From: Tomocerus qinae
Lineage: Eukaryota > Arthropoda > Collembola > Entomobryomorpha > Tomoceridae
Reading direction: 5' to 3'
Assembly: GCA_020055645.1 (NCBI GenBank)
Contig: CM034550.1
Location: 17,869,001-17,933,000 of the forward strand
DNA: 64,000 bases
Shown: positions 28,018 through 64,000 of the stretch, piece by piece
How positions within the stretch are numbered: position 1 is the first letter of the stretch
Layout of the letters: every line of letters begins with the position of its first letter
Made by a program: the position numbers and the translations under genes
Notes under the pieces: generated by a model
Seen by the model: only the letters and a program-made list of their open reading frames with translations
Databases searched by the model: none
What the model was told of the DNA's origin: nothing

Positions 28018-28139
28018 TTACATTTAACATCAATGTAAACATCAATTTAACATCAATTTTAACATTAATTTAACATCAATTTTAACATTAATTTAACATT
28101 AATTTTAACATTAATTTAACATCAATTTAACATCAATGA
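28018..28139. repeat. Short tandem repeat, unit about 11-13 bp (AACATYAATTT)
   Basis: About ten imperfect tandem copies of a TTTAACATCAA / TTTTAACATTAA unit, with C/T variation and variable T-run length. This is a minisatellite-like array within otherwise unstructured intergenic DNA. Confidence 0.85.
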
Positions 28140-29115: not shown

Positions 29116-30954
29116 TTAGTAAGCTACCTTTTTTGGATTGACCAAAGAAATTTTCTTGATACGTGTGCAAAATGCAATTCCGAATAGCAAAGATATTTCG
29201 CTCAATTTGGCAGATTCAAGTGACACGATTCTGAGTTCTGAGAAATAAGACATTGGTAAAGTTCAAACGGTATAAATAACGAGTAAAAAAAAGTTTGGGA
29301 AAAGAAGAATGGATATTTACCTTTCAAGTTTCCAATGTATGGATGAATTCTTAGAGATTTGACTCTTTGGTCTGTGAGTGCCAAATCCTTTAGTTTATTG
29401 ATATCCACGGCTGGAATTCCAGTAATGCCCGAATCCGTAAAGAATCCTTCTGTAGCCGTGAATTCTTTAAGTTCCGGCAAATTCCCAAAGATAATTCGAA
29501 TAGATTCGTCAGTCATATGTCCCATAGTCAATTTGTTGAGATGAGGAAAGCGCTGACACATTACTTGAACTGTTTTTGCCATGCAAAGCTTGACTGTGTT
29601 ATTCTCAACGATAAGACCTTGAAGATCGTGAGATACATATCTTTTGGTAGCTGTGTGCTTCCACGGGTTTAAAATGTTAGCAAAATCCGAATTAGAAATA
29701 ACCAATTCTTCCAGCATGGCTACGCTATTCAAGAAGAAAATATTCCCGGTGTATTCCTCCAATTGGAGTTTTTTCAGTTTCTTCATGAAAAAAGAGCTTG
29801 GAATTGCATTTGTTGAGAATGTGCTGCACAATAAATGCTTGTTGAGGTGATTAATTTTTAAGAATGTAAGGGAATCACGGAAATTTTTCAGTGCTTCGTG
29901 AAGAACTCCAGTGCGGATGTTTCCTCCACATAAAACAATCGTTAGCTTCTGAAGAGGGAATTTCTTCTTTGCAAGTTTCACAAGATCGTTATTTTCAATT
30001 ATGATCAACTCCATATTTAATGTAGTCAGCTTATCCAGTTCAATCGAATCGTGATTGAGAAGCATCTGAGATAATATGAGATCCCCAAATCTGCTTGAAT
30101 TCGAAGTGGCGAATTTTTCCAAGAAATGGGTGATATTCATTTCGTTCCGAGGATTATGAAGATGATAATGAACTGGAACACCTCTACGAGGTCGAGCTAG
30201 ACGCTGCATCCGGAAATCAATTTGTCGACTGGAGACTGGAAATTGTGGGGCGCATTGAAGACTTGAAAGAGTATTTATGTTGCAGGCTGCAGCCAATATT
30301 CGGAGTAATAATTGACATGATGGATCATTGATCAAGTTGCAGTTGATAGAGAGATTTTTTAAATTTGGCAAATAAAGCTTCGGCATAGTTTGCAAGTTTT
30401 GAATCGAAGGTTCATGGTTGAAGCATAATTTCAATTCCAATAAATTTGGCACCGTTTTACCGAGAAGTTCCCACAAGGTAGAGTAGTCCCAGTATACTCT
30501 GTCTAAGTACAGATATTGTATGATATTTCCATTGGTACGAAATAATTTCTGCACCCATTCGTTTTCTAATTCTAGTGGAGCCCCCAATTTATAATTGATT
30601 GGATCAGCAAAGGAAGTATACGAATGTTCAAGGAATTCCTCGATTTTCTCTGGAGATTGAAATGATATTTGCGAGCATTTTCGCAAATATTTCCATGCCT
30701 CAATATTCCACTCGTGACAAACCAGTCTGCAAGTTTTCAGTTCTTCAATTTCACATAAACTTAAAATCCTTTCAGTGATCTGTAAAATATTAGCAATTGC
30801 AAAACCTCATGAAAATCCCGAATTAATTTAACATTTTCAACAATATTCTAATAATAAAAATGTAATCAGTTACCGATGGAATCAATAAAGCATTAAGGGC
30901 CGATTGCTCCGGCAGATGTTCGCTGTCAGTTTCCGCCACGATTTCGTCTTTCAT
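29116..30954 (-). CDS. F-box and leucine-rich-repeat protein, copy 1
   Basis: Three exons on the minus strand: 30954-30874, 30779-29321 and 29237-29116, giving 553 residues. The start ATG at 30954 opens a short acidic N-terminus, and exon 1 ends in NALLIPS. Exon 2 continues with ITERILSLCEIEELKTCRLV and C-x-W, the typical F-box helix pattern ending in VC..W. The rest is a degenerate leucine-rich repeat array, e.g. LKLCFNHEPSIQ, LPNLKNLSINCN and FPHLNKLTMGHMTDESIRII. Family role: F-box proteins bind Skp1 and recruit substrates, here through the LRRs, to SCF ubiquitin ligases; the substrate is unknown. The second intron splits codon 1 of the last exon, which reads ELRIVSLESAKLSEISLLFG and ends at a TAA. 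Same architecture and intron phases as the gene at 52869-55762. The initiator is the ATG in exon 1, not the TTG inside the LRR exon. Confidence 0.85.
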
Positions 30955-49783: not shown

Positions 49784-50653
49784 CTATTGCTGTAATATGA
49801 ATTTTTTAACATCTACAGCTGAAGTGGGTAATGGTGTTTTTGCTATAATTTCGTTGAGTAGATCCTTAATGACTCCTTCGAGCATGGTGGAAACTTTCCA
49901 TTTGACACGGTTTCCCACGACTTGAAGGATCTATTAGGTTAAATATAAACTGATAATCATTACATTACCTTCTATAAAAGCGGTAGAATGCTCTTTATCG
50001 ACATCAAAGAGCAAGAGCCACTACTTTTAAAAGTACAATTGATTGAAAGAAGTAATTTGGCAAATTCCATTAGCAGACTTACACTAGAGACGAGAAAATT
50101 TAGTACGGAGCCCAGTCCTGTGATCTTCGCTTTGAGAGAGCCTATATCTTTTACAGTTAGTTTCTCTAAAATGACTGTATCTGACCCTGGAGCTAAACAC
50201 AGCTGCACATCGCAGGTGACATGACTTAAACTCCCCGTAATCGAACCCCGAGGACCGTGATTCATGAACGTGGCATGAATATCATACGCCAGTTCTGTAT
50301 TTATTATTCCCACTTCTACGTCCACAATTACTCCTCCCATCTATATATAACACCCAAGAAATAGTGTCAAAATTGAAACTACCATCCTTCCAATTTATCA
50401 CTCGCTTTATAGCAAAACTTACGTTTATAGTTATGATAGCGTCACCCGTCCGATGGATCGTCTCTAGGCCTTTGAGTATTCCATTATATAAAACGGCTTC
50501 TCCATGCCAGGAAACACCAAGACGTCTCCTAGTAAAATTCGTTGTAGCGTCCGGAAGGTTTATGTTATTGAGACCGTTATCCACCATCTGAATATGTAGG
50601 CTATCTAAGACTGAATCTGTGTAACTGTTTGCAATTGCACTACTAATCTGCAT
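49784..50653 (-). CDS. Mite group-7-allergen-like lipid-binding protein
   Basis: Three exons on the minus strand: 50653-50423, 50340-50083 and 49930-49784, all phase 0, giving 211 residues. Seen: an N-terminal helical stretch (SSAIANSYTDSVLDSLHIQM), then alternating β-strand segments with NGILKGLETIHRTGDAIITI, IIDTELAYDI-like IINTELAYDIHATFMNHGP, CDVQLCLAPGSDTVILEKLT and VKDIGSLKAKITGLGSVLNFLV, and an amphipathic C-terminal helix with GVIKDLLNEIIAKTPLP. This pattern matches the arthropod group-7 allergen (Der p 7-like; Pfam Grp7_allergen) family, whose fold resembles BPI/takeout-type lipid binders and is normally secreted. A signal peptide is missing: the ATG at 50653 overlaps a possible acceptor (aaaatgcag before 50647), so a separate signal-peptide exon upstream is likely but was not found. 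Confidence 0.8.
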
Positions 50654-52868
50654 TTTGTATACTTTTAAATGTAGAAATTTGGTTCCTCTTTGACCCTATG
50701 ATTTTCCAAATAAAACGTGGTAACGATAAGATTTTTGATTTTCAAAGGGTGAGTCTTAATTTTTGGCGGAAAAGCCTTTTCGTTTCAGTTTGACCACTAA
50801 AAATAAAGAATTTATATTGGCGAACATTTCCTAACGGCTTTGCAATGACTGGTTACTGTGTAAGAAAGTAAATCAGAAAAGTAGTAAGCCCCTTAGAGCA
50901 GTGTTGTGGGATGAAGCAACAATTTATTTTCGTGTGTATATGCTTCATACAAGTGTCTTTGGTAGGATTAGGTAGAAGGTCTGTGTATTCGTATGTAGTG
51001 TGGTAATGTGAGATAAGTTTTCACATAAGAGTCGCTAATCTACCGGAGAAAGTCAAGAGTGGTGTGAATCTTGCTGGAGAACAAGTTAAAAGTAGGGAAA
51101 ACAAAGCTGATTGTGAATGGAAGAACGGAGGAAAAGGATACACACACTACACACGTGCTCCAACCAACTCCAGCGTCTATCTTGGCCGAGTCAATGATGA
51201 GAAAGAAATACAAATTCCGGATCGGATCCTAGGCAGAGCTCAGAACAGAGGAACGAAAGGAAATGGGGTGAAGATAGCTTTGAGCTGCTGAGAACTCCAG
51301 AAATACTCGAGCGAGTGTGTCGAGATATGATTTTCTATGTGTGTATGTATGTATAGTGAATTGATATAATTTGAAAGCCCCTCTGGTAGTCTGAGTTGAA
51401 CTTATGTTTAGAGAGCTGCTTTCCACACGAAGAAAAGTTTCCCTTCCAGACTACTTGTTCTGAATGAGTTGGCTCGGCTGTTGTGTCTGAGCTGTTGAGC
51501 TGAGCTGATTGTGTGTGAGCTGAAGAACAGAAGACGGGAGAGAAGGAGACAGAGCAGAACGGAACCGAAGAGTGCAGTAGTAGTAGTGCCCGGGCAGGAG
51601 CAGGGTGACTACTACATGTGTAATATGCTTACAACCGTAGAACCTTACACGACGACATCCAGAATCCTGACCAGACTAGAAGGACTAGAACCGGGTAAAG
51701 GGAAAGTGAAACCAGGGAAATTCCTGAATCAATAGTAGAATCAATATCACGTATATCCGTTCTGTGCTCCTTTCTCGTATGACTTCAATACAGAAAATCC
51801 TGAACCTATTTAGGTATAAATAAAGCTGTGTGAGAGCTTTGCATTTCGACAACTTTCCTTTCCCTCTACCTACATCTATGCTTTGACGTAAGTAAATCCT
51901 CCTATTTCCTTCTCGGAGGTCCAACTCCAACACAATCTTTTGCCCCTTGGCTTTGTAACTGTCTCGTTCTCGTCCTAGCTCTAAACTAAAGTGACTGACT
52001 TGACTCTGTCTCTCTACTAAACAAAATACAGTTAGTACATTGCATTTGGATTGTGGAAGCCTTGCTTAGTGAAAGCGGAGAAAGCCATTCATATTCTGCT
52101 TGAGTTTCTCCTTTCACTTCACAGAGAAAGTCATTCTCGTTCAAAACTGTCAGACAAAGGGAAGATTAGTTTCATCCAAGCATATGCTCCTGTTAGTTCC
52201 ATTGAAATGGATATCTCTCCTAGTTATCTATATACAATTTATGCCGTGCGTGGGGGCTAAAAAAGACTAGTTATTAAGGACAAACCGATATTACATGCAT
52301 TCTCATAATAAACTTTCCTAAAAGACGTCATTAGCAACTTTTACCGAATCATTTCCTGCAGATTCACCAATTCCCTACCTACTTAGAATAGAATATTTGC
52401 ATCGTTTGTCTTTTATTGTTGACAGTACGGCTTAATTGAAATTTATGAACTGGAAATCTAATAGAATGCTTTATTTGCACTTTACACATCAAACATACAA
52501 TCAGCGATGATCAATCTCCTCCTCCTTTGTGTACGGCAGTTTTAGACATTATTAACTTAAGTAGGTATCATCAAGGTATCCTTCAACATATATGAAAATG
52601 CTGTTCAGTTCTACCAGACTATTAAAATAAATGTAATATTAATAGTACCAGAATTCAATAAATAAATAAATACCAAGGGTAATCACAATTTTAACATGAA
52701 TATGAGCTGAATAATTTATTTTTGAAGTACTTTTAAAGGTTTTTTATGATGAACGCGGTGTACATTTATACGAAGGCAGTCAAAAAATAGAAATTAACTT
52801 CTTAATTAATTAACGTTAAGATTCTTGCTGGGTGAAACAAAAATTGATCATTGGTTTTGAAACAAAGG
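50654..52868. other. Intergenic, no firmly supported gene
   Basis: No family motifs. On the plus strand at 50911 an ATG opens a short signal-peptide-like frame that meets a possible donor (gtagg) near 50961; no second exon was found. Several purine-rich open frames around 51.1-51.7 kb look like chance. Confidence 0.45.
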
Positions 52869-55762
52869 TTATATTCCACTATACTCAATCTCTACATAAT
52901 CATCCGAAATATGATGTAGGTCACTACTATCCTCAAGTTTTTTTAGAACTACTTTGGCGGTGTCATTTTTCTTCAGGAATCTAACTATTTCTACCTTATC
53001 CATCGGTCCACTGTATTTATTTATAGACACATGATAACCTTTCATCTTCTCCTCAGCATAATTTTTAATATCTTCCGTTATTCTGCTACAAAATACAGTT
53101 TGTAAATAACTCAGTCGCATATCTTTCACAATCTTTTTAATAGAAACATCAGTTATCTGAAATTTAAAAAAATAGCGTAAAATATTTTTGAGTAGTTATA
53201 AGAATGGCAAATTAATTGCATACTAATAGTAAAGTGGAAAACTCACCGCGAAAGAATTCAAAGCCAGTTCTCGCAGACATTCGCATTCGCATATTCCATT
53301 GGCAATGGAAAAGTCAGTCAAGTATGGTGTCTCCAATTCTAATCTCCTTAATTCTGCAAAACAAATTATTAATCAAACTTAGTAACCTTAAAAGTCACTT
53401 TAATAGCCTGAAATATTTAAATTGCAGATAAAAAAACTTAAAATTCCACTTTAAGTTGCAAGTAGACACAACACAGTCGTTTCACGTTTCGTTCACAAAC
53501 TTTTTACTTTCTCTATTGATATGTTAAGAATTAAGACAATAACAATTGCCAAATATCGTACGATCCAATTAGTATTTAATTTTATTGTAACACCTTTACT
53601 TTTTCTATGCTAACATTCATGTAAAACTTTCACCGGTAAAGTCACGAGAAGTTCAGTAAATACGAATTAGCGTGGTGAAAGCTTGGAAACATGGAGTTAC
53701 AAAGAATAAAATGTCTAACTTTGTTTCATAATTTTAATATATATATATATATATATTGTATATATATATATCCTGGAATATTTTCTTATTTCTAAAAAAT
53801 TCTATCCCTGGAGCTTTTTTTAATTTCTAAAAATATTTTCCATCCCTGGAAATTTCCCCCATTTCGGAATTATTTCTCTATCTACGCAACCTTTGCCAGT
53901 GAAATGTCCATTTATTCACAAAATTATTAGCAATATACTCCATCGAATGAAATCAGAATTTAGTTGTAAAACATTATGTGTTGGTAAATATAAAAATTGA
54001 CGGTGAAAGCTTTTGGTGTTCATCATTGAAAAGAGAAAGTAGTTTAACAATTTAACATTACGTTTGGCTTATTACAGGAAAAATTAATGATTCTTACTTT
54101 TTAAGCTGGCGATGTAAGGTACATTAGGGGAACGAGTGAAATGAATTGATTTAAGGATATCGTCGGAATCAGCTGAGTGATGCTGTTTAGGTTCTAATCC
54201 ACAAATGCCTAAATCTGTGAAAAGCCCATCGACAAGCACCAGTTCTTCCAATTTAGGTAACTTTGAGAAAATCACACGGAGATTATCATTGTTGACTCCT
54301 TCCAGTCTTAGTCTTGTCAAATTAGGACATGCTTGTGTGAGCCTACTCATCACAGGATTGGGGTACGGGTTGCAAAACTGATAAATCTTTGAATCATGAT
54401 AAATTTCTAATGTTTTGAGACTGTACGGTTTTTTGCCTTCGTGGAAATTGATTGCGGCAAACTGAGGATGCAACACAGCTTGTTCCAGATTCACTCTTCT
54501 TAAAATTAAAGTTTTAAGTTCAGGAAGCTCTTCCAAAATGACTAAAGATCCTTTGAATCCTACGAGGGATAAATACTGCAATTTCTTTAGTTCCCCACCA
54601 GACGGAATTGAATCGGCGAAGGGAACATTTGGATGGTATTTGAGTCGTAAATGGGTTAGAGTATTTTTCAAGCTGCTGAATAAGAGACATAGCGTCTGAA
54701 GTTGGACATTGGGTGTAGGAGACAAATCCAGCTTTTCAAGAGGCAGATTCTTGGCTTGCAACTTTTTCACAGCACTGTCACTCCCAATCATGTGCACATC
54801 TAGGTCCTTTAATTTTCCAAATCTTGGTCCAGTTAGGCTTACAACCAGCTGCGACAATATGATATGGGACGACAGAAAAGGTAAATCTTCCACCACTGCT
54901 TCTGGCATTGACTCAGTTCGGTTGGCGATAAACTGCCGCCCAGATCTGAGCATGTCGTCAATGGTCAGCTCGAATCGGTTTTTCCGTTGAGGTTTCATTG
55001 CAGTCAATTTTTCCATGTTCGGCACCATCATAGTCAGTTCTTTCAACATGGGCGATCCAACATTGCACAGTTCCCAGTTCATTTTAAGATGTTTTAGCTT
55101 ACTTAAAACGGGGATATTTATATTCGGTAATTTTCTGCTACCGTTTTCCGCATAAATATTATTTATATTTATTGCAGCATTAGAAACTACAGCTTGTTCA
55201 TTGGGATTAGGAAAAATATGAACATTTTCCAAAATGACGTCAGGATTCGGATCTAAAATCAATTCTTCAAGGTTAGGTACTTTCTCACCGAGTATTACTC
55301 GTAAATCCGTGGATGTCCAGTTGACTTTATTAAAGTGAAGTGACTTAATCGTTGTTCCAAAGCGATTGAAAAAACTTCTCACGCACCATTTTGCCAATTC
55401 TAATTCTGGTCCTAGTTGAAAGCTATTTGCAAAACATCTATTAGGGTGAGTTCTCTTCTTGTGGTTTTGAATGTACTCCCGGACTATGCTATTTCTTGAA
55501 AAAACAACTGCTGTTTTACATTTCAGAAACTTCCGAGCTTCACATTCCCATGTTGAACAAACTAAACGACAAGTTTTCAGTTCTTCGACATTGGCATAGC
55601 TAAGCACCTCGTTGATTATCTGAATCATAAAAACACAAGCCTTTTACCCAACTAATTTCTTAAAAAAATGACGAAAAACATCAAAACTAATTAAATTTCG
55701 AAAACACTTACCGATGGGACTAGCAAAGGATGAATATTATGGCACTCATACACCACGGCCAT
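52869..55762 (-). CDS. F-box and leucine-rich-repeat protein, copy 2
   Basis: Four exons on the minus strand: 55762-55712, 55619-54098, 53353-53247 and 53156-52869, giving 655 residues. Exon 1 encodes a 17-residue start ending in HPLLVPS; exon 2 opens with IINEVLSYANVEELKTCRLV and C-x-x-W, a clear F-box. It is followed by an LRR array with repeated L-x-x-L-x-L units, e.g. LPNINIPVLSKLKHLKMNW, LKDLDVHMIGSDSAV, LKKLQYLSLVGFKGSLVILE and ACPNLTRLRLEGVNNDNLRV. Exon 3 continues the LRRs (KLRRLELETPYLTDF). Exon 4 adds a 95-residue charged end absent from copy 1. The role is inferred as a substrate receptor of an SCF ubiquitin ligase with unknown substrate. Compared with copy 1 the first two introns sit at the same places and phases, so these are duplicates, about 23 kb apart and on the same strand. 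I do not use the ATG immediately before the exon 2 acceptor as the start. Confidence 0.87.
53735..53772. repeat. TA microsatellite
   Basis: A run of alternating T and A interrupted once (attgta), inside the second-to-third exon intron of F-box/LRR gene 2. Confidence 0.9.
53769..53867. repeat. Imperfect direct repeat, three units of about 40 bp
   Basis: Three successive segments each start with ATCC(C)TGGA and continue into an ATTTCTAAAAA or similar stretch. They lie next to the TA microsatellite in an intron and probably arose by local duplication. Confidence 0.5.
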
Positions 55763-57250: not shown

Positions 57251-60200
57251 CTAGAGGAATTTTTCTTTGCAACCACTAGTGCCACAAAAGCAGGCCAACG
57301 ATTTATTTGTGTCGTCTTCAATAATACCTGTGTAGTCAAAAGTTAGTTCCGTTAGAGCTAAGATGTTTTGATTGGCAAAGAAAGAAACATAAGGCGTGAA
57401 TTTCATCAACGGATGTGATACAAAAACTGTCTGTGTGAACATGTTCGGTCGACATGAATGCTGCAAAAAACAGTTCATTTCAGATTTGTAAAAATCAATC
57501 ATATTTTCCTTATTTGTTTACGTAACATCTTCATTAAGTTGTAAAATTACATTAAAAAACCGAGCCAGATTGCCTTCTGTGGTAGCATCAATAATACATC
57601 TATTATCTCTATAATCCTCACCAACGAGTTTGGTTGGGATGTCACTGCTTGGCAAGGTAATTCTTACTTGATATTGTCCGTCTCCCTAAAAATTTAACAT
57701 TATCAATGGTCAAATAATTTCAACATGAATCATCTCTCGTTCATTATTTATTTATTATTTAATACCACTTACAGTATCAGCTTCATTTGCTAGCTTAACA
57801 AGTCCGACAAAATTACAAACAAATGCTCCATGAGGAATGTCTTGTAATGTCCTTACTCCCCAGCCGGTATTTTCAGTATTAACAATTTCTAAGCTCCATG
57901 CCATATTATTCTGGACCACTCTGTTGCAACAATTGCTGAAACAATGACACCTAAATGAAAAACAACAATATTTAATACAAAATTATAATTGTCTGAAGCA
58001 AAAAAAATTGATTTTATTTAAATGTTTTCTGTCCGCACATAGAACTGCATTCGAAAATTCCTATTTTATCCGGTTTTAGCAACTTTCGTAGCTGGTAGCC
58101 ATTACTTATTTTTAACTTCTTCATTGAATATTGAGACGACTCCAACTCATTTCGAAAATTTGTACTTTTCATACAATTACATTTAAATGGATCCTAACAA
58201 AATAAAACATTTTTTAACTCCATATATCAAATTGTTTGTCGTTTATTATGAATAGTGTAAATAAACGAATAAATGTAATATACATACCATGCAACCATTT
58301 ACACAATCGCAGCCGCAGCTTTCCGATAAAAATAATGAATCACTTTTATACAGGTCAGAATACTCATATTCTGATATATACCTAAAATAAGGGAGTTCTA
58401 GACCATTTTCAGTAGTTTTGCACTTAACAGGAATCAATTCCTTGCCATTAGTTATATCCTATAAAAGAGAAACAAAGCAAATTATATATTATTTGAACGA
58501 TTTCAATAATTAGTAACAACAAATTAAATAAATAATACTGATTACTGTGATTACAAAAACTTCTAAGTATTAGTAGTATTGTAACTGTAAGGGTTAGTAG
58601 AATGAATGACTGTATTCAATTATTAATACCTCGGTTAGTGTGCACGCATTTGAATCGAGATCAAAATATTGTTCTTTCATCCAATTATTAGGTGAGCATT
58701 CAACTTCGGGGTTAAAACAGAAGTTGTCAATAGCCAGATCTGGGTGGGCACCCTTAAGTAAGAACTCGAAAACTGATTGTTCATCAACAAACATTTTTCC
58801 ACAGGGTGTTTCATAGAACACTGATCTATCCTTAACTTTCCTGAAATAATATATAAATTGAAACTTAAACTTACAAATACTTTTTCTTGAAACATAAATT
58901 CGATTACCTAAATATATTTACAAAATTGGAAAATAGTAAACTATTGAAGTACCTTTCAAAACCAAAAACTCTGCAGCGGAATAGCTTGTTGTTTACCACG
59001 GATTTGGGAAATCCTGATTCGTTATAAATACAACAAATTTCCATACAGTCTTTTACAGTGTGAACTAACGAAGGATGATACATGGAAGCCAAAGGTTTTC
59101 TCGAGGTGGACGGTTGTGGCTGTGAATCAGAATTGGAATTTCTAGGCTTTCTTGGAGTGAATTTTCTACCACGACTTGGACTTGAGATTTTCTGTTTCGA
59201 ATTTGAAAAATTCAGAGGCCCGACTGAGGACCGCAGATCATTTTCCTGGCTACTGTTACTTATATTCGGACTGGAAATAGGAACATCCTGAGTATTAACT
59301 TTGATATTCGGTTTGTCAGTCTGTTGTTGACTATCAAGATTATCTAGGGAATCTTCTGTGAGGTCAATCACTATATTTTCTCTTTGTACTGTCACTGGAT
59401 TTTCAACTATTGCATTTTCAGCAGTTTCTGAGCTATTCACTCCCGCTACTGGACTAAATGTTTCAGTATTACCGGCTATTAATTCTGGGTTAACTGCCGT
59501 TTCTGAAATGCTGATTCTAGTTTCTGGATCACCAACTGCCGCTTCGTTATTAGCTTCTGCATTTTGGTGATTGCCACTACCATCTAAGTCTAAATTGCCC
59601 AGAATTTCTGACACTTCTGTTGAATTTTGATGAGGAAAAGGATCATCTTCAGCTTCCATACTATCAACTTTTATATTGCACACTTCAACTTTAACAATTT
59701 CTTGCTTAATATTGGAGATATCCACCGGTTCTGGTTTAATTTGGACTAGATCATTATTCGAATTTGGTTGCCGAGTATTTTCAACACTTGCTTCTCTTGA
59801 CGTGCGACTTAGGGATTTTAACTTGTATTGTCTCAGTGTATGATCGATGTTTATTTTCTCCAGACGCACAACAGGTACTGCAATTATAGTAAAGACATAA
59901 AAATAGCAGTAAACCCAACAATGAAAAATTCACTAAATTGGTGCAAAGCTTACGTGAATTAGGATTGCGATATGACGTCGTTGATGATCGTGCTGTATCA
60001 AAAAACTATATTCAATCAAAGAGAAAAGACATGTAAAAGGCAAATAAATAATATTTGAAAACGATTCTTACAACTTCCTTGTGACAACACATCGTCATTG
60101 TCTGCACTACACAAATTAGCCAGATTCAGTTGGTCATTGTCATTTACGCCATTCTCTTGCCTATTAGGAACTGTTGGGCAAAAAAGTAGATCATATATTA

Positions 60201-63200
60201 TAATATATAGTATATAAATATATACTCGACCATTAATGATTGCGCAATTTAAGCAGTACCAGTGTACCTTGAGACTGAAAGCATTGTTGCGAGTCATTAT
60301 TTCGTAACTGTTGGTTCCCCTTTCTAGTAGCTTTTTTAGGACCTGGACGTTGTGAAAAAACTTCAACTTCCTTTTCAATGACATTTTCATCAATTCCATT
60401 TCGCACTGCTGAAAAGTTTGAAGTTAATTCCTTCCCGGCGAAAATATTTTCCTTTGCGAAAAATGCAATATGGGGTAGACGGTATTCGAGTAGACAATCA
60501 GATTTTTCTTCAATGAAAACTGTTTGCATAAAAACATTAGATTTTGGTGCGTGCTGTAAAAATAAATACATTTTAAAATTATTAACAAAAACATTTAACT
60601 TGTCTATATTAAATTGTCAGTAAGAAATCAAATAAAATTGATAACACAATTCCAAAATATTTGTGGACGACTAAAGTAAAAAATCTTTTAGAAAAAAAAT
60701 TAAAATAAGATTAAAGTTTACATCTTACATTAATGAATCTTCCGACATTTCCTTCATTTGTTGCATCAATATACAGATTCTGGTGCTCGTAAGCATTTAA
60801 ACATGCGTGACGACCCCGTGTCTTTCTTAAAGGAGTCCTGCTATTTTTATTCGATGTCTCATCGCCTGATTGATGTTTGCAATTTTTATATGGACAGTCG
60901 TAAGGGGGGCCCAATTTGATCTGGTGTTTGTGTTCACCCTGTGTATGCAACAAGAACAGAATTACAACGGGCAATGTTGAATTTAATTAGCTAAGCTTTT
61001 ACACTATTCCACTTACATTAAGCGCTTCTTCTTCCATTACAATTCTTCCAATAAATTGACAAACAAAATGTCCTTTTGGAATATCGTGTAGAGTTCTAAG
61101 GCCCCAGCCATCAGCCTTTCTAAATACTTGAAGTTTCCACTTTATGGGAGCCTGAACGACTCGATTTCCGCAGTACACACCGTTATTATTGACAGTACAT
61201 TTGCACCTTAAAATCAATTGTTGATATTTAATATCCAATGCTATTATTACTATTATATTCCGCTTTTTGGCCAGTCGTGTGTGGAAAAGGCTAATATAAT
61301 TAAAACTATTATTTATTATTATAAGAGTTTATAGTAAAGTTTTTTACTTATAGTTGCATTCATATATTCCCCTAGGCACACTTCGTTGCAATCTTCTGAA
61401 ATCGTATCCCTTGTAACTGCCTTTGCAAGCGGAGGAAACGAATCCTTTTGTGTGCCGTTTCGTTGTGTCCGTCACACACGAACATCCCTTTAACACAATA
61501 CATTATTTATATTTATTCATTACCCTTAAGTGTATTTTTTAAACAAAAATGTTAATTATTATCCATGACATTACGTTTGATTTGCGTCATGAATATAAGT
61601 TGTTCGTCATCAATACAATGAGTTTTTACAACATTGTTGCAAGTTGCAATTGTGTTTAGAAAAGGTAAAACATAACGAACCTGGCAATCGTCTGTGCAAA
61701 TGCATTCGTTTCCAATATCAAACAGTGGAATATTTACGTTGTTGCCAGCTGTACTTCTTGTTATGTAAGTGAATTCGGGCAATACTTCCCTGTCAATTTC
61801 GTTGACACAAGTAATCGGCACTTTTTCCAAACCTTGAGTGATATTCTAAACAATCACAATCATTAGATTAGAGCCTGTATAACTACATAATCACAATTAG
61901 TTTCAATCTACACTATGGCACATTAAAAAGTTATCATAGGAATTTGTATGTATAAGCAATTCATGGCTATTTTACTATAGACTAATGACAGATTTGCAAA
62001 TTTTTACTAATCAGAGGTGCTCAATATCTTGTACTGGAGTTGAAATGCATAAAGCTAATTGCTCAACCTCAACCCAGTTCCTCCTTGTTCATCCAGTTTC
62101 ATTTCCAACATTTAAGATGGAAGAGAACAACTGATGACAATTAACCAGACAACGGAAATTATGGAGTGATTCACGGGTAGAAAATCGAAAAGAACCTTTT
62201 GGTATCTCCCACACCAGTACAAACAATCTTATCCAAAATTAAATCTCACCAAAAGTCATTGTTTGATTTGGCAGGCTAAATGGTCGTCTCATTTTGAGCC
62301 TTACTTTATTGATGCCGTTGTATACGGACACTGAGATGACCGATCTCTTTTGTGCATTGCTACTGCAGGACAAGATATTGACAAGACATGCACTTCTGAT
62401 TAGTAAAAGTCTGTAAGACAAATTAGCCTGTAGTATGAATTGCTTTTATACATACAAACTCCTATGATAACTTTTTAATGTGCCATACATATTCGTAATA
62501 CATACTATTGTTATTTCTTAATCTAATATCGACTTACTGGATTGATTACTTGCAAATCCCACACTGGAAATTCTACCATGTCTCTTATTTCGTATTCAAA
62601 ACTAAAAAAGTCGATCGTTATACATGGTTCCGTGCGATACGAAAAGTCAGTTCTTATTAAAAAGTCCATTACATCCTTATAAGTACCAAAAATCTTGCCA
62701 CATGGAGATTCATATTTAACGATTATGCCATCTATGATTCTATGTAAATTTTGAATTTATACTTAAGAAAGATTTGGAATTAATTGAAAATAAAATATAC
62801 ACGGTGGTTTCGGCCACTCACCTTTTCCATCCAAACGATTTGCAAAAAGAAAATGGATTCGTTAGTATTTTATGGTTAGATCGCACGTCTACATTCACGC
62901 AATCAGCAGTGCAATTTTTTTGTGAGTGGGGAACCGCTGCCCTCTGGAAGTTTCTTATTGTTCGAGTTGCCGGAACTAAATCTTTAAATGCATTAGCAAA
63001 ATGCTCAGCATAAGCCTGTATATCTACTTGACTATTTTGATTGTTAGTACGACTGCTTAGGGAAAAATCTGGGTCATTTTTGGCAACGGGAACTGGCTCG
63101 GTCAGACTTGTACTCTCCACATTTTTATTGTTAGGACCTAGAAGTGAAAAACACTATTATTATTAACCTATCATATTATATAGTAAGCACAGTAAGCAGT

Positions 63201-64000
63201 GCAGTATCTACAACCACTGAATCATAAAACGAAATTAGATATTTTACTTGTATTTGATTCATTATAGTTTGTTACGGTGGGGTTTATTTCATTCGTTACT
63301 GGAGATATTGCTACATCGAGTATATTTTCTTGCCCACTTTCTTCAGCAATATTGTCATTTAAGTCCATGGGGATCACATCAGGAGATAAAAAAACTTGTC
63401 GCAATAAATTTTCCAAAGAAACTTGATTGTCAAGTTTTAAAGTTCTGTAAAATAAGCAAACATTTACGTATTATGGAAATTAGACATTAGCATCACTAAA
63501 TCCTAACAATACGAATTTAGAAAAGTATGAACACTACGAACCTTGGATTTCTAAAAGCAAATATATTTCTATTGATAAAAAGAGCTGCTCCCGATTTTGC
63601 GTTTTCAAAAGATGCTTGCTTCAAAAGATCAGACAATCCAAGTAGGTTATTCAAAGTTAAGTATGGCTTCATTCTTACAGAAATACCTCCTACTGTACAA
63701 TTTGTCGATTGGAAAATCACAGTTTCAGCCTTTTCATATCTGCAATATTTACAGTACGCGCAAAACAAACAAATTAGAATTTAATCTGTAATACAGTGTT
63801 GTACAATTTACATTATGTTTTGCGTGGACACATTTTTATAAGAATAGTCCTAACCTCTGTTGGAAAGGAGTATCAAATAGATCTTGGTCGCATTTCAAAC
63901 AGTCAATAATTTCAAAAAATGTAACTTCATTGTCTATTACAAATTCGCCAAACACTATCATTTTATTTGGCAGTCTCAGCTTACGGTGTTGGCTGTTATG
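57251..64000 (-). CDS. Double-module SETDB1-like histone-lysine methyltransferase, N-terminus beyond window
   Basis: Nineteen minus-strand exons join in phase without a stop (64000-63855, 63739-63542, 63444-63248, 63137-62822, 62739-62538, 61845-61681, 61487-61348, 61206-61017, 60938-60729, 60553-60268, 60170-60072, 59992-59954, 59877-58953, 58840-58630, 58458-58288, 58193-58039, 57950-57773, 57685-57551, 57460-57251): 1390 residues in the window. Module 1 (about residues 286-650): MBD-like (YESPCGKIF), pre-SET with nine cysteines (ECICTDDCQGCSC; YECNYKCKC), and SET starting WGLRTLHDIPKGHFVC. Module 2 (about 1038-1390): MBD-like (YETPCGKMF), DITNGKELIPVKC, pre-SET (GCDCVNGCM; CHCFSNCCNRVVQ), SET with FFNHSCRPN and LTFDYTG, and post-SET CFCGTSGC. 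This order and these motifs are those of SETDB1/eggless H3K9 methyltransferases. Module 2 looks active; module 1 does not. No ATG in frame lies between module 1 and the first 100 residues of the linker, supporting one protein rather than two genes. The tandem Tudor region, if present, would be upstream. Confidence 0.85.
61916..62485. mobile_element. MITE-like element with long terminal inverted repeats and TA target duplication
   Basis: Both ends carry TGGCACATTAAAAAGTTATC in inverted orientation, and the similarity continues inward, with small gaps, for about 135 bp on each side (left arm to about 62050, right arm from about 62350). The element is flanked by TA at 61914-61915 and 62486-62487. 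No transposase is encoded. Size (570 bp), inverted arms and TA duplication fit a nonautonomous Tc1/mariner-type element. It sits inside a 692-bp intron of the SETDB1-like gene; without it the intron would be about 120 bp, like its neighbours. Confidence 0.85.

Follow-up and report, generated by a model that had tools for sequence, protein, structure and literature searches.

To our knowledge, methyltransferases acting on lysine 9 of histone H3 (H3K9) have a single catalytic module and depend on partners for their control. According to the accessible part of one report, the plant proteins SUVH2 and SUVH9 have a diverged RFxNHxCxPN motif and no post-SET domain, and may be inactive for histone methylation (PMC2582956); the accessible part of another describes them as needed for silencing (PMC3402665). 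As far as the available text of its description goes, a Chlamydomonas class IV-C Su(var)-type protein carries two SET domains behind an SRA and a pre-SET domain (PMC5725981). Here we analyse C5:17869001-17933000 of the springtail Tomocerus qinae (genome of 334 Mb in 115 contigs), a stretch of 64,000 nucleotides that we call the window, whose minus strand encodes two consecutive SETDB-type modules between 57251 and 64000. On balance, the locus is probably one gene, a divergent SETDB paralogue of about 1817 amino acids that would have arisen by internal duplication and would join an N-terminal pseudo-enzyme to a likely active C-terminal module. We read it in this way because of the single frame, the coding signal of the linker, the same six introns in both modules, their pairing as sisters in a tree and the selective loss of active-site residues.

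The gene and its two modules

The minus-strand region 57251-64000 resolves into 19 exons. As the initial annotation had stated, the phases match at every in-window junction (18/18) and no stop codon interrupts the frame, which gives an in-window chain of 1390 residues from the window edge to a stop at 57251. Module 1 occupies residues 250-683 of this chain and module 2 residues 997-1390. The gene runs 5′ past the window edge: its start ATG, preceded by an in-frame stop, lies not inside the window but at L009:1631 in the adjoining stretch, which contributes four further exons and the first 62 nucleotides of exon 1, all phase-consistent. The full chain thus has 23 exons and 1817 amino acids. The in-window features are as follows.

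63855..64000, minus strand: exon 1 as far as it lies in the window, with an open frame, phase 0 at 64000 and donor gttagg (62 nucleotides more in L009)
63542..63739, minus strand: exon 2, N-terminal region, no known domain
63248..63444, minus strand: exon 3, N-terminal region
62822..63137, minus strand: exon 4, with the first part of the module 1 MBD-like region at its end
62538..62739, minus strand: exon 5, module 1 MBD-like region, 12.3 bits (Pfam cut-off 21)
61681..61845, minus strand: exon 6, NITQGLEKVPITCVNEID segment and first pre-SET cysteines
61348..61487, minus strand: exon 7, middle of the pre-SET
61017..61206, minus strand: exon 8, end of the pre-SET and N-terminal part of SET, GWG kept
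60729..60938, minus strand: exon 9, middle of SET; one catalytic tyrosine position is histidine (by eye)
60268..60553, minus strand: exon 10, C-terminal part of SET with NHAPKSN (its first N in exon 9) and LTSNF, degenerate post-SET, then linker
about 60364-60332 (hand-counted), minus strand: degenerate post-SET of module 1, within exon 10
60072..60170, minus strand: exon 11, linker, symmetric (phase 1-1) and without ATG; its acceptor is the weakest in the gene
59954..59992, minus strand: exon 12, linker, phase 1-1, no ATG
58953..59877, minus strand: exon 13, polar-rich linker, then start of the module 2 MBD
59657..59659, minus strand: earliest in-frame ATG of the linker, at which translation might start internally
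59357..59371, minus strand: VIDLT in the linker, a pattern match only, without background test
58630..58840, minus strand: exon 14, module 2 MBD, 21.1 bits (cut-off 21)
58288..58458, minus strand: exon 15, DITNGKELIPVKC segment and pre-SET
58039..58193, minus strand: exon 16, pre-SET
57773..57950, minus strand: exon 17, end of the pre-SET and N-terminal part of SET (GWG)
57551..57685, minus strand: exon 18, middle of SET, GDGQYQ, without the long bifurcating insert
57251..57460, minus strand: exon 19, HSCRPN, LTFDY, post-SET CFCGTSGC, stop

At the Pfam gathering score, the MBD/pre-SET/SET order passes all three cut-offs in module 2, where the MBD is just over its threshold, and the pre-SET and SET cut-offs only in module 1. 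Aligned with each other, the modules are identical at 129 of 367 residues with a score of 443, against a maximum of 57 among 300 shuffles, and each has the full nine-cysteine pre-SET (9/9). The six introns inside the modules are all common to both, at the same aligned residue and in the same phase. Pfam, the alignment and the pre-SET cysteines thereby bear out the initial annotation of two successive units of SETDB1 order on one strand. The best matches among solved chains in the PDB are, for both modules, EHMT1 and EHMT2, labelled as H3K9 enzymes in part of the entries. Third codon positions are only 36.5% identical between the modules, so that the ratio of non-synonymous to synonymous substitution rates is not useful here.

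The 5′ part of the gene gave no Pfam match even at E values up to 10, Tudor included, and no similarity to the N-terminus of canonical SETDB1 (283 of 300 shuffles were equally good). Its N-terminal 170 amino acids have no convincing PDB match (best E 0.063, to nanobodies), and a whole-genome search with these first 170 residues returned their own two exons only.

Two repeat structures lie in or near the gene. Intron 5 holds a long imperfect inverted repeat at 61914-62487 that resembles a hairpin insert, with outer arms (61914-61955 and 62446-62487) 98% alike and inner arms 85% alike; the segment 62246-62277, enclosed by the arms, resembles 63945-63976 of exon 1 at 72%. Upstream of the gene, L009:8806-10000 is a tandem DNA array; its frames on the minus strand contain repeats of the kind IGxNWEGFGS.

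SETDB-type genes and the descent of the modules

Searching the genome with module 2 gave 24 matches, and four further SETDB-type genes were found, each with a single module and intact motifs. Copy A is the canonical SETDB1 (L023:2327-5977, C1:102.135-102.139 Mb), an intronless frame of 1217 amino acids that passes Pfam for Tudor_4, Tudor_5, MBD, Pre-SET and SET and has a bifurcated SET domain. Paralogue B (C2, 56.57 Mb), which has matches to the Tudor region of copy A, and paralogues C (C2, 44.35 Mb) and D (C1, 13.45 Mb) all bear introns. Their MBD-to-post-SET parts were assembled with a purpose-written spliced aligner, which reports the best chain per strand only and is no test of single-module status; we take each to be single-module because the genome-wide list and tblastn of these stretches with the canonical protein and the two modules gave one match set for each. 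Both B and C exceed the Pfam cut-offs for SET and Pre-SET; the MBD of C, with 21.3 bits, also does, and that of B, with 18.2, falls short. The MBD of D stands 3.5 kb upstream of the remainder, at the edge of the stretch taken. NHSCxPN, LTWxYNY and CxC....C are present in B, C and D. The other module 2 matches lie, for example, on C3, at C1:123.08M and at C2:22.36M; some of them were compared and appear to belong to other SET families. A pattern search for relatives in collections of genome contigs and of viral contigs gave 181 and 120 stretches, none of which was confirmed by tblastn. Five SETDB-type genes in one genome are more than we would expect from general knowledge. Copy A is intronless while B, C and D keep introns; it is perhaps a retrocopy that took over, or a product of intron loss.

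A tree of six sequences, the two modules and copies A to D, built on 439 of 555 columns, pairs module 1 with module 2 as sisters (support 95/93), though on long branches; this answers the phylogeny check that the initial annotation had proposed. Groupings that separate the modules are 6.8 to 18.7 log units worse in six tests of four distinct splits, with approximately unbiased (AU) test p values of 0.004-0.045. Three observations weigh against this pairing: it unites two long branches, of which the tree program warns; omitting either module leaves the place of the other unresolved; and in the six-sequence alignment the modules are 32.4% identical, no higher than the 32.9% between module 1 and canonical SETDB1. 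Common descent of both modules inside this lineage is therefore favoured by the sequences, not proven.

The introns speak to the mode of origin. Paralogue B shares the six module intron positions and phases, five in the same alignment column and the sixth (EANE|DGK) by eye, being displaced in the alignment at the bifurcation. Paralogues C and D have four module introns in common with the window gene, and both lack the N|H intron. The module introns are probably ancestral to the SETDB family, given that paralogue B, with its single module, has them at the same positions. For the same reason we rejected shared introns as proof of a single gene; what the sharing with B does suggest is an origin at the DNA level from a B-like gene structure. 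In the mechanism we propose, an intron-bearing MBD/pre-SET/SET unit would have been duplicated internally at the DNA level to give a bimodular protein. Shared introns and sister modules are equally compatible with a tandem duplication of genes.

The linker and the number of genes

The modules are separated by 313 residues, of which 71% are polar or disorder-promoting compared with 56-59% in the other parts. Of the four psi-K-x-E matches in the in-window chain the linker holds three, and it also holds the chain's sole VIDLT match, both being patterns taken without a background test; we take VIDLT to belong to a class of SUMO-interaction-like motifs. In agreement with the initial annotation, the linker exons 60170-60072 and 59992-59954 and the start of 59877-58953 contain no in-frame ATG. 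Its further statement that module 2 has no obvious start of its own holds for the first 72 codons of exon 13, which are ATG-free, but has to be amended by an in-frame ATG at 59659.

Most of the linker has coding potential. In the joined frame exon 11 reaches +14.6 bits, and its other two frames are negative. Exon 13 scores 138.8 bits in frame, and the 72 codons ahead of its first ATG alone score +27.5 bits, again with both other frames negative; these codons are also free of stops, for which about 0.2% (~1 in 500) would be expected at the stop density of introns. Exons 11 and 12 are symmetric (phase 1-1), so that splicing from exon 10 to exon 12 or 13 also keeps the frame.

Several features of the same region count against a single transcript. 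Among the 22 acceptors of the gene, scored with a matrix from 41 introns each left out in turn, that of intron 10 (60171), which fuses the modules, is the weakest at -2.0, a value that 68% of the AGs on the strand reach, and it is also the poorest with an 18-intron matrix; the acceptors of exons 12 and 13 score 9.0 and 3.3. Exon 12 is too short for a useful score (+3.1 in the joined frame, +3.7 in a different one), and in the tail of exon 10 a second frame is also open and positive (+12.1 against +20.7). The hexamers AATAAA and ATTAAA occur at 59855 and 59740, although the two combined are found about 2.9 times per kb on the strand. The ATG at 59659, 72 codons into exon 13, could start a product with module 2 only. 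If intron 10 is retained, the exon 11 frame is open back to 60423 and includes ATGs at 60399, 60390, 60384 and 60297, and the frame of an unspliced exon 10 stops at 60233.

Some of these features would fit two tandem genes, of which the first would encode a dead SETDB and end soon after exon 10 (at the stop at 60233 if the donor is unused) and the second would have its own promoter in the linker region and encode the active one. The weakest acceptor at 60171, the AATAAA at 59855, the ATG at 59659 and, with intron 10 unspliced, the ATGs between 60399 and 60297 count in favour of it. We nevertheless judge this arrangement unlikely. The 72 codons upstream of the ATG at 59659, which share its frame, look coding, and so does exon 11 in that frame; exons 11 and 12 are without ATG, and read-through of intron 10 in the exon 11 frame scores -7.7 bits, which is not coding-like. 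The second gene would moreover be without a recognisable N-terminal region, and the linker is unlike the N-terminus of the gene: 451 of 500 shuffles reach the observed score, and the homology between the two that a whole-gene tandem duplication would have left was thus not found.

A single gene could also yield two differently regulated forms, the full bimodular protein and a shorter module 2 isoform from an internal promoter. The symmetric exons 11 and 12 can be skipped in frame and the ATG at 59659 precedes the entire module 2, but there is no positive evidence for an internal promoter, for which no scan was made, and we hold this to be rather improbable. Internal duplication with a single product and this two-form variant both place the modules on one transcript, and from the sequence such a transcript is quite likely.

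Catalytic residues, surroundings and known systems

The initial annotation described the modules as consecutive copies of the SETDB1 order. Fold order and pre-SET agree with that description, and yet module 1 is an unequal copy from which catalytic and post-SET residues are gone. To compare the modules, invariant columns were defined on copies A to D, 116 in all, with 19 that fall within the segments NHSCxPN, ELTWxYNY and post-SET. Of the 116, 69 are retained in module 1 and 72 in module 2, so that module 1 is not simply decaying. Its losses are concentrated in the catalytic and post-SET columns, with 6/19 kept against 63/97 elsewhere (p 0.0099), whereas module 2 has no such deficit (13/19 against 59/97, p 0.61). 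Of the family-invariant cysteines, module 2 has 18/18 and module 1 13/18, the five lost being one just ahead of the pre-SET cluster, that of NHSC and the three of the post-SET CxC....C.

In module 1, NHAPKSN replaces NHSCxPN and LTSNF replaces LTWxY, with loss of the tyrosine, and the post-SET position reads VFSQRPGP instead of CFCGTSGC, with V, S and P where the cysteines should be. The paralogues end at the post-SET; the chain of module 1 continues there into the linker. The second catalytic tyrosine also appears to be replaced, by H in GEHKHQ against Y in GDGQYQ, an assignment made by eye and less sure. Module 1 does retain GWG, the segment NRVVQ and all nine cysteines of the pre-SET. In the DIM-5 structure, the cysteine of NHSC and the three of the post-SET together coordinate the post-SET zinc, and those of the pre-SET, nine in number, coordinate a zinc triangle; module 1 would then have one metal site wholly lost and the other wholly kept. 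With NHSCxPN, the tyrosine of LTWxY and every post-SET cysteine gone, module 1 looks catalytically dead.

Module 2 carries GWG, NHSCRPN, LTFDY and the post-SET CFCGTSGC and is, with these motifs and a best match to EHMT1/EHMT2, a probable lysine methyltransferase, whose H3K9 target we infer from family membership. Two points temper this contrast between the modules: module 2 deviates from the paralogues at FVCNFVG and LTFDYTG, so that its activity is not certain, and a direct test of one module against the other over the 19 catalytic and post-SET columns gives a borderline difference (Fisher p 0.050). That both modules are active, as a covalent pseudo-dimer in which the residues of module 1 are unusual but working, is very improbable, for the retained GWG, NRVVQ segment and pre-SET cysteines stand against a missing NHSC cysteine, LTWxY-type tyrosine and complete set of post-SET cysteines, with the other catalytic tyrosine probably missing too.

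Internal duplication into a bimodular methyltransferase, as first proposed, thus remains the best-supported reading through frame, introns, tree and coding signal across most of the linker, except that module 1 looks non-catalytic. Of the two functional ideas that accompanied it, a regulatory/catalytic pair is favoured; a pseudo-dimer of equal enzymes is not, given the catalytic and post-SET losses of module 1. In the favoured pair, both modules would be on one mRNA, with module 2 as the putative catalytic half and module 1 in cis as a pseudo-enzyme that could be a structural, recruiting or allosteric partner of it. The scaffold kept in module 1 may bind DNA, histone or module 2, and the polar linker would tether the modules and, as a guess, carry SUMO-dependent contacts. 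More tentatively, the protein may be a single-chain methyltransferase/pseudo-methyltransferase whose dead copy serves as an integral reader or allosteric subunit and stands in for the missing Tudor domains, and perhaps for the proteins that control SETDB1 elsewhere. If it is one protein, it offers a natural test of a SETDB module without catalysis, with pre-SET scaffold and SET surface kept, the active site removed and an enzyme in cis, and it would show how a Tudor-less SETDB paralogue could be directed to its targets in a genome that has five genes of SETDB type.

Elsewhere in the window, two overlapping minus-strand frames at 49972-50695, presumably exons of one gene, match a Group 7 allergen (E 1.6e-10 and 5.3e-14). 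The long minus-strand frames at 54084-55643 and 29202-30806 (519 and 534 amino acids) are alike by eye and have F-box-type starts that stay under the Pfam cut-off. A tandem array with a period of 23 and 5.1 copies lies at 28022-28137.

Comparing the window gene with canonical SETDB1/Eggless, here copy A, reveals the same order of MBD, DIT-type segment, nine-cysteine pre-SET and SET, with 32-33% identity per module. Copy A, however, differs in its single module, its Tudor_4 and Tudor_5 domains and a SET domain split by a long insert; in the window gene the module is doubled, nothing matches Tudor, and module 2 is free of the long insert. The bifurcating insert is present in copies A to D; module 1 has a short one that by eye is unlike the others. 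With both the tandem Tudor domains and the long bifurcating SET insertion lacking, the window gene is, by its predicted domain content, not a SETDB1 orthologue. Nor is it a new enzyme class. Paralogues B, C and D resemble it in their SETDB type, with MBD-like region, pre-SET and SET, and in their shared introns, but have one module each in what was found, with intact catalytic and post-SET motifs.

No bimodular SETDB was found among the papers listed by searches of the open-access literature on SETDB1, SET duplication and Collembola, which is weak evidence of absence. The nearest published two-SET protein found is that of Chlamydomonas, which, in the available text, does not consist of two full MBD/pre-SET/SET modules. 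Plant SUVH2 and SUVH9, as described in the accessible parts of those reports, are pre-SET/SET proteins with a loss of NHxCxPN and post-SET comparable to that of module 1; they are, however, separate SRA proteins, unfused to an active module.

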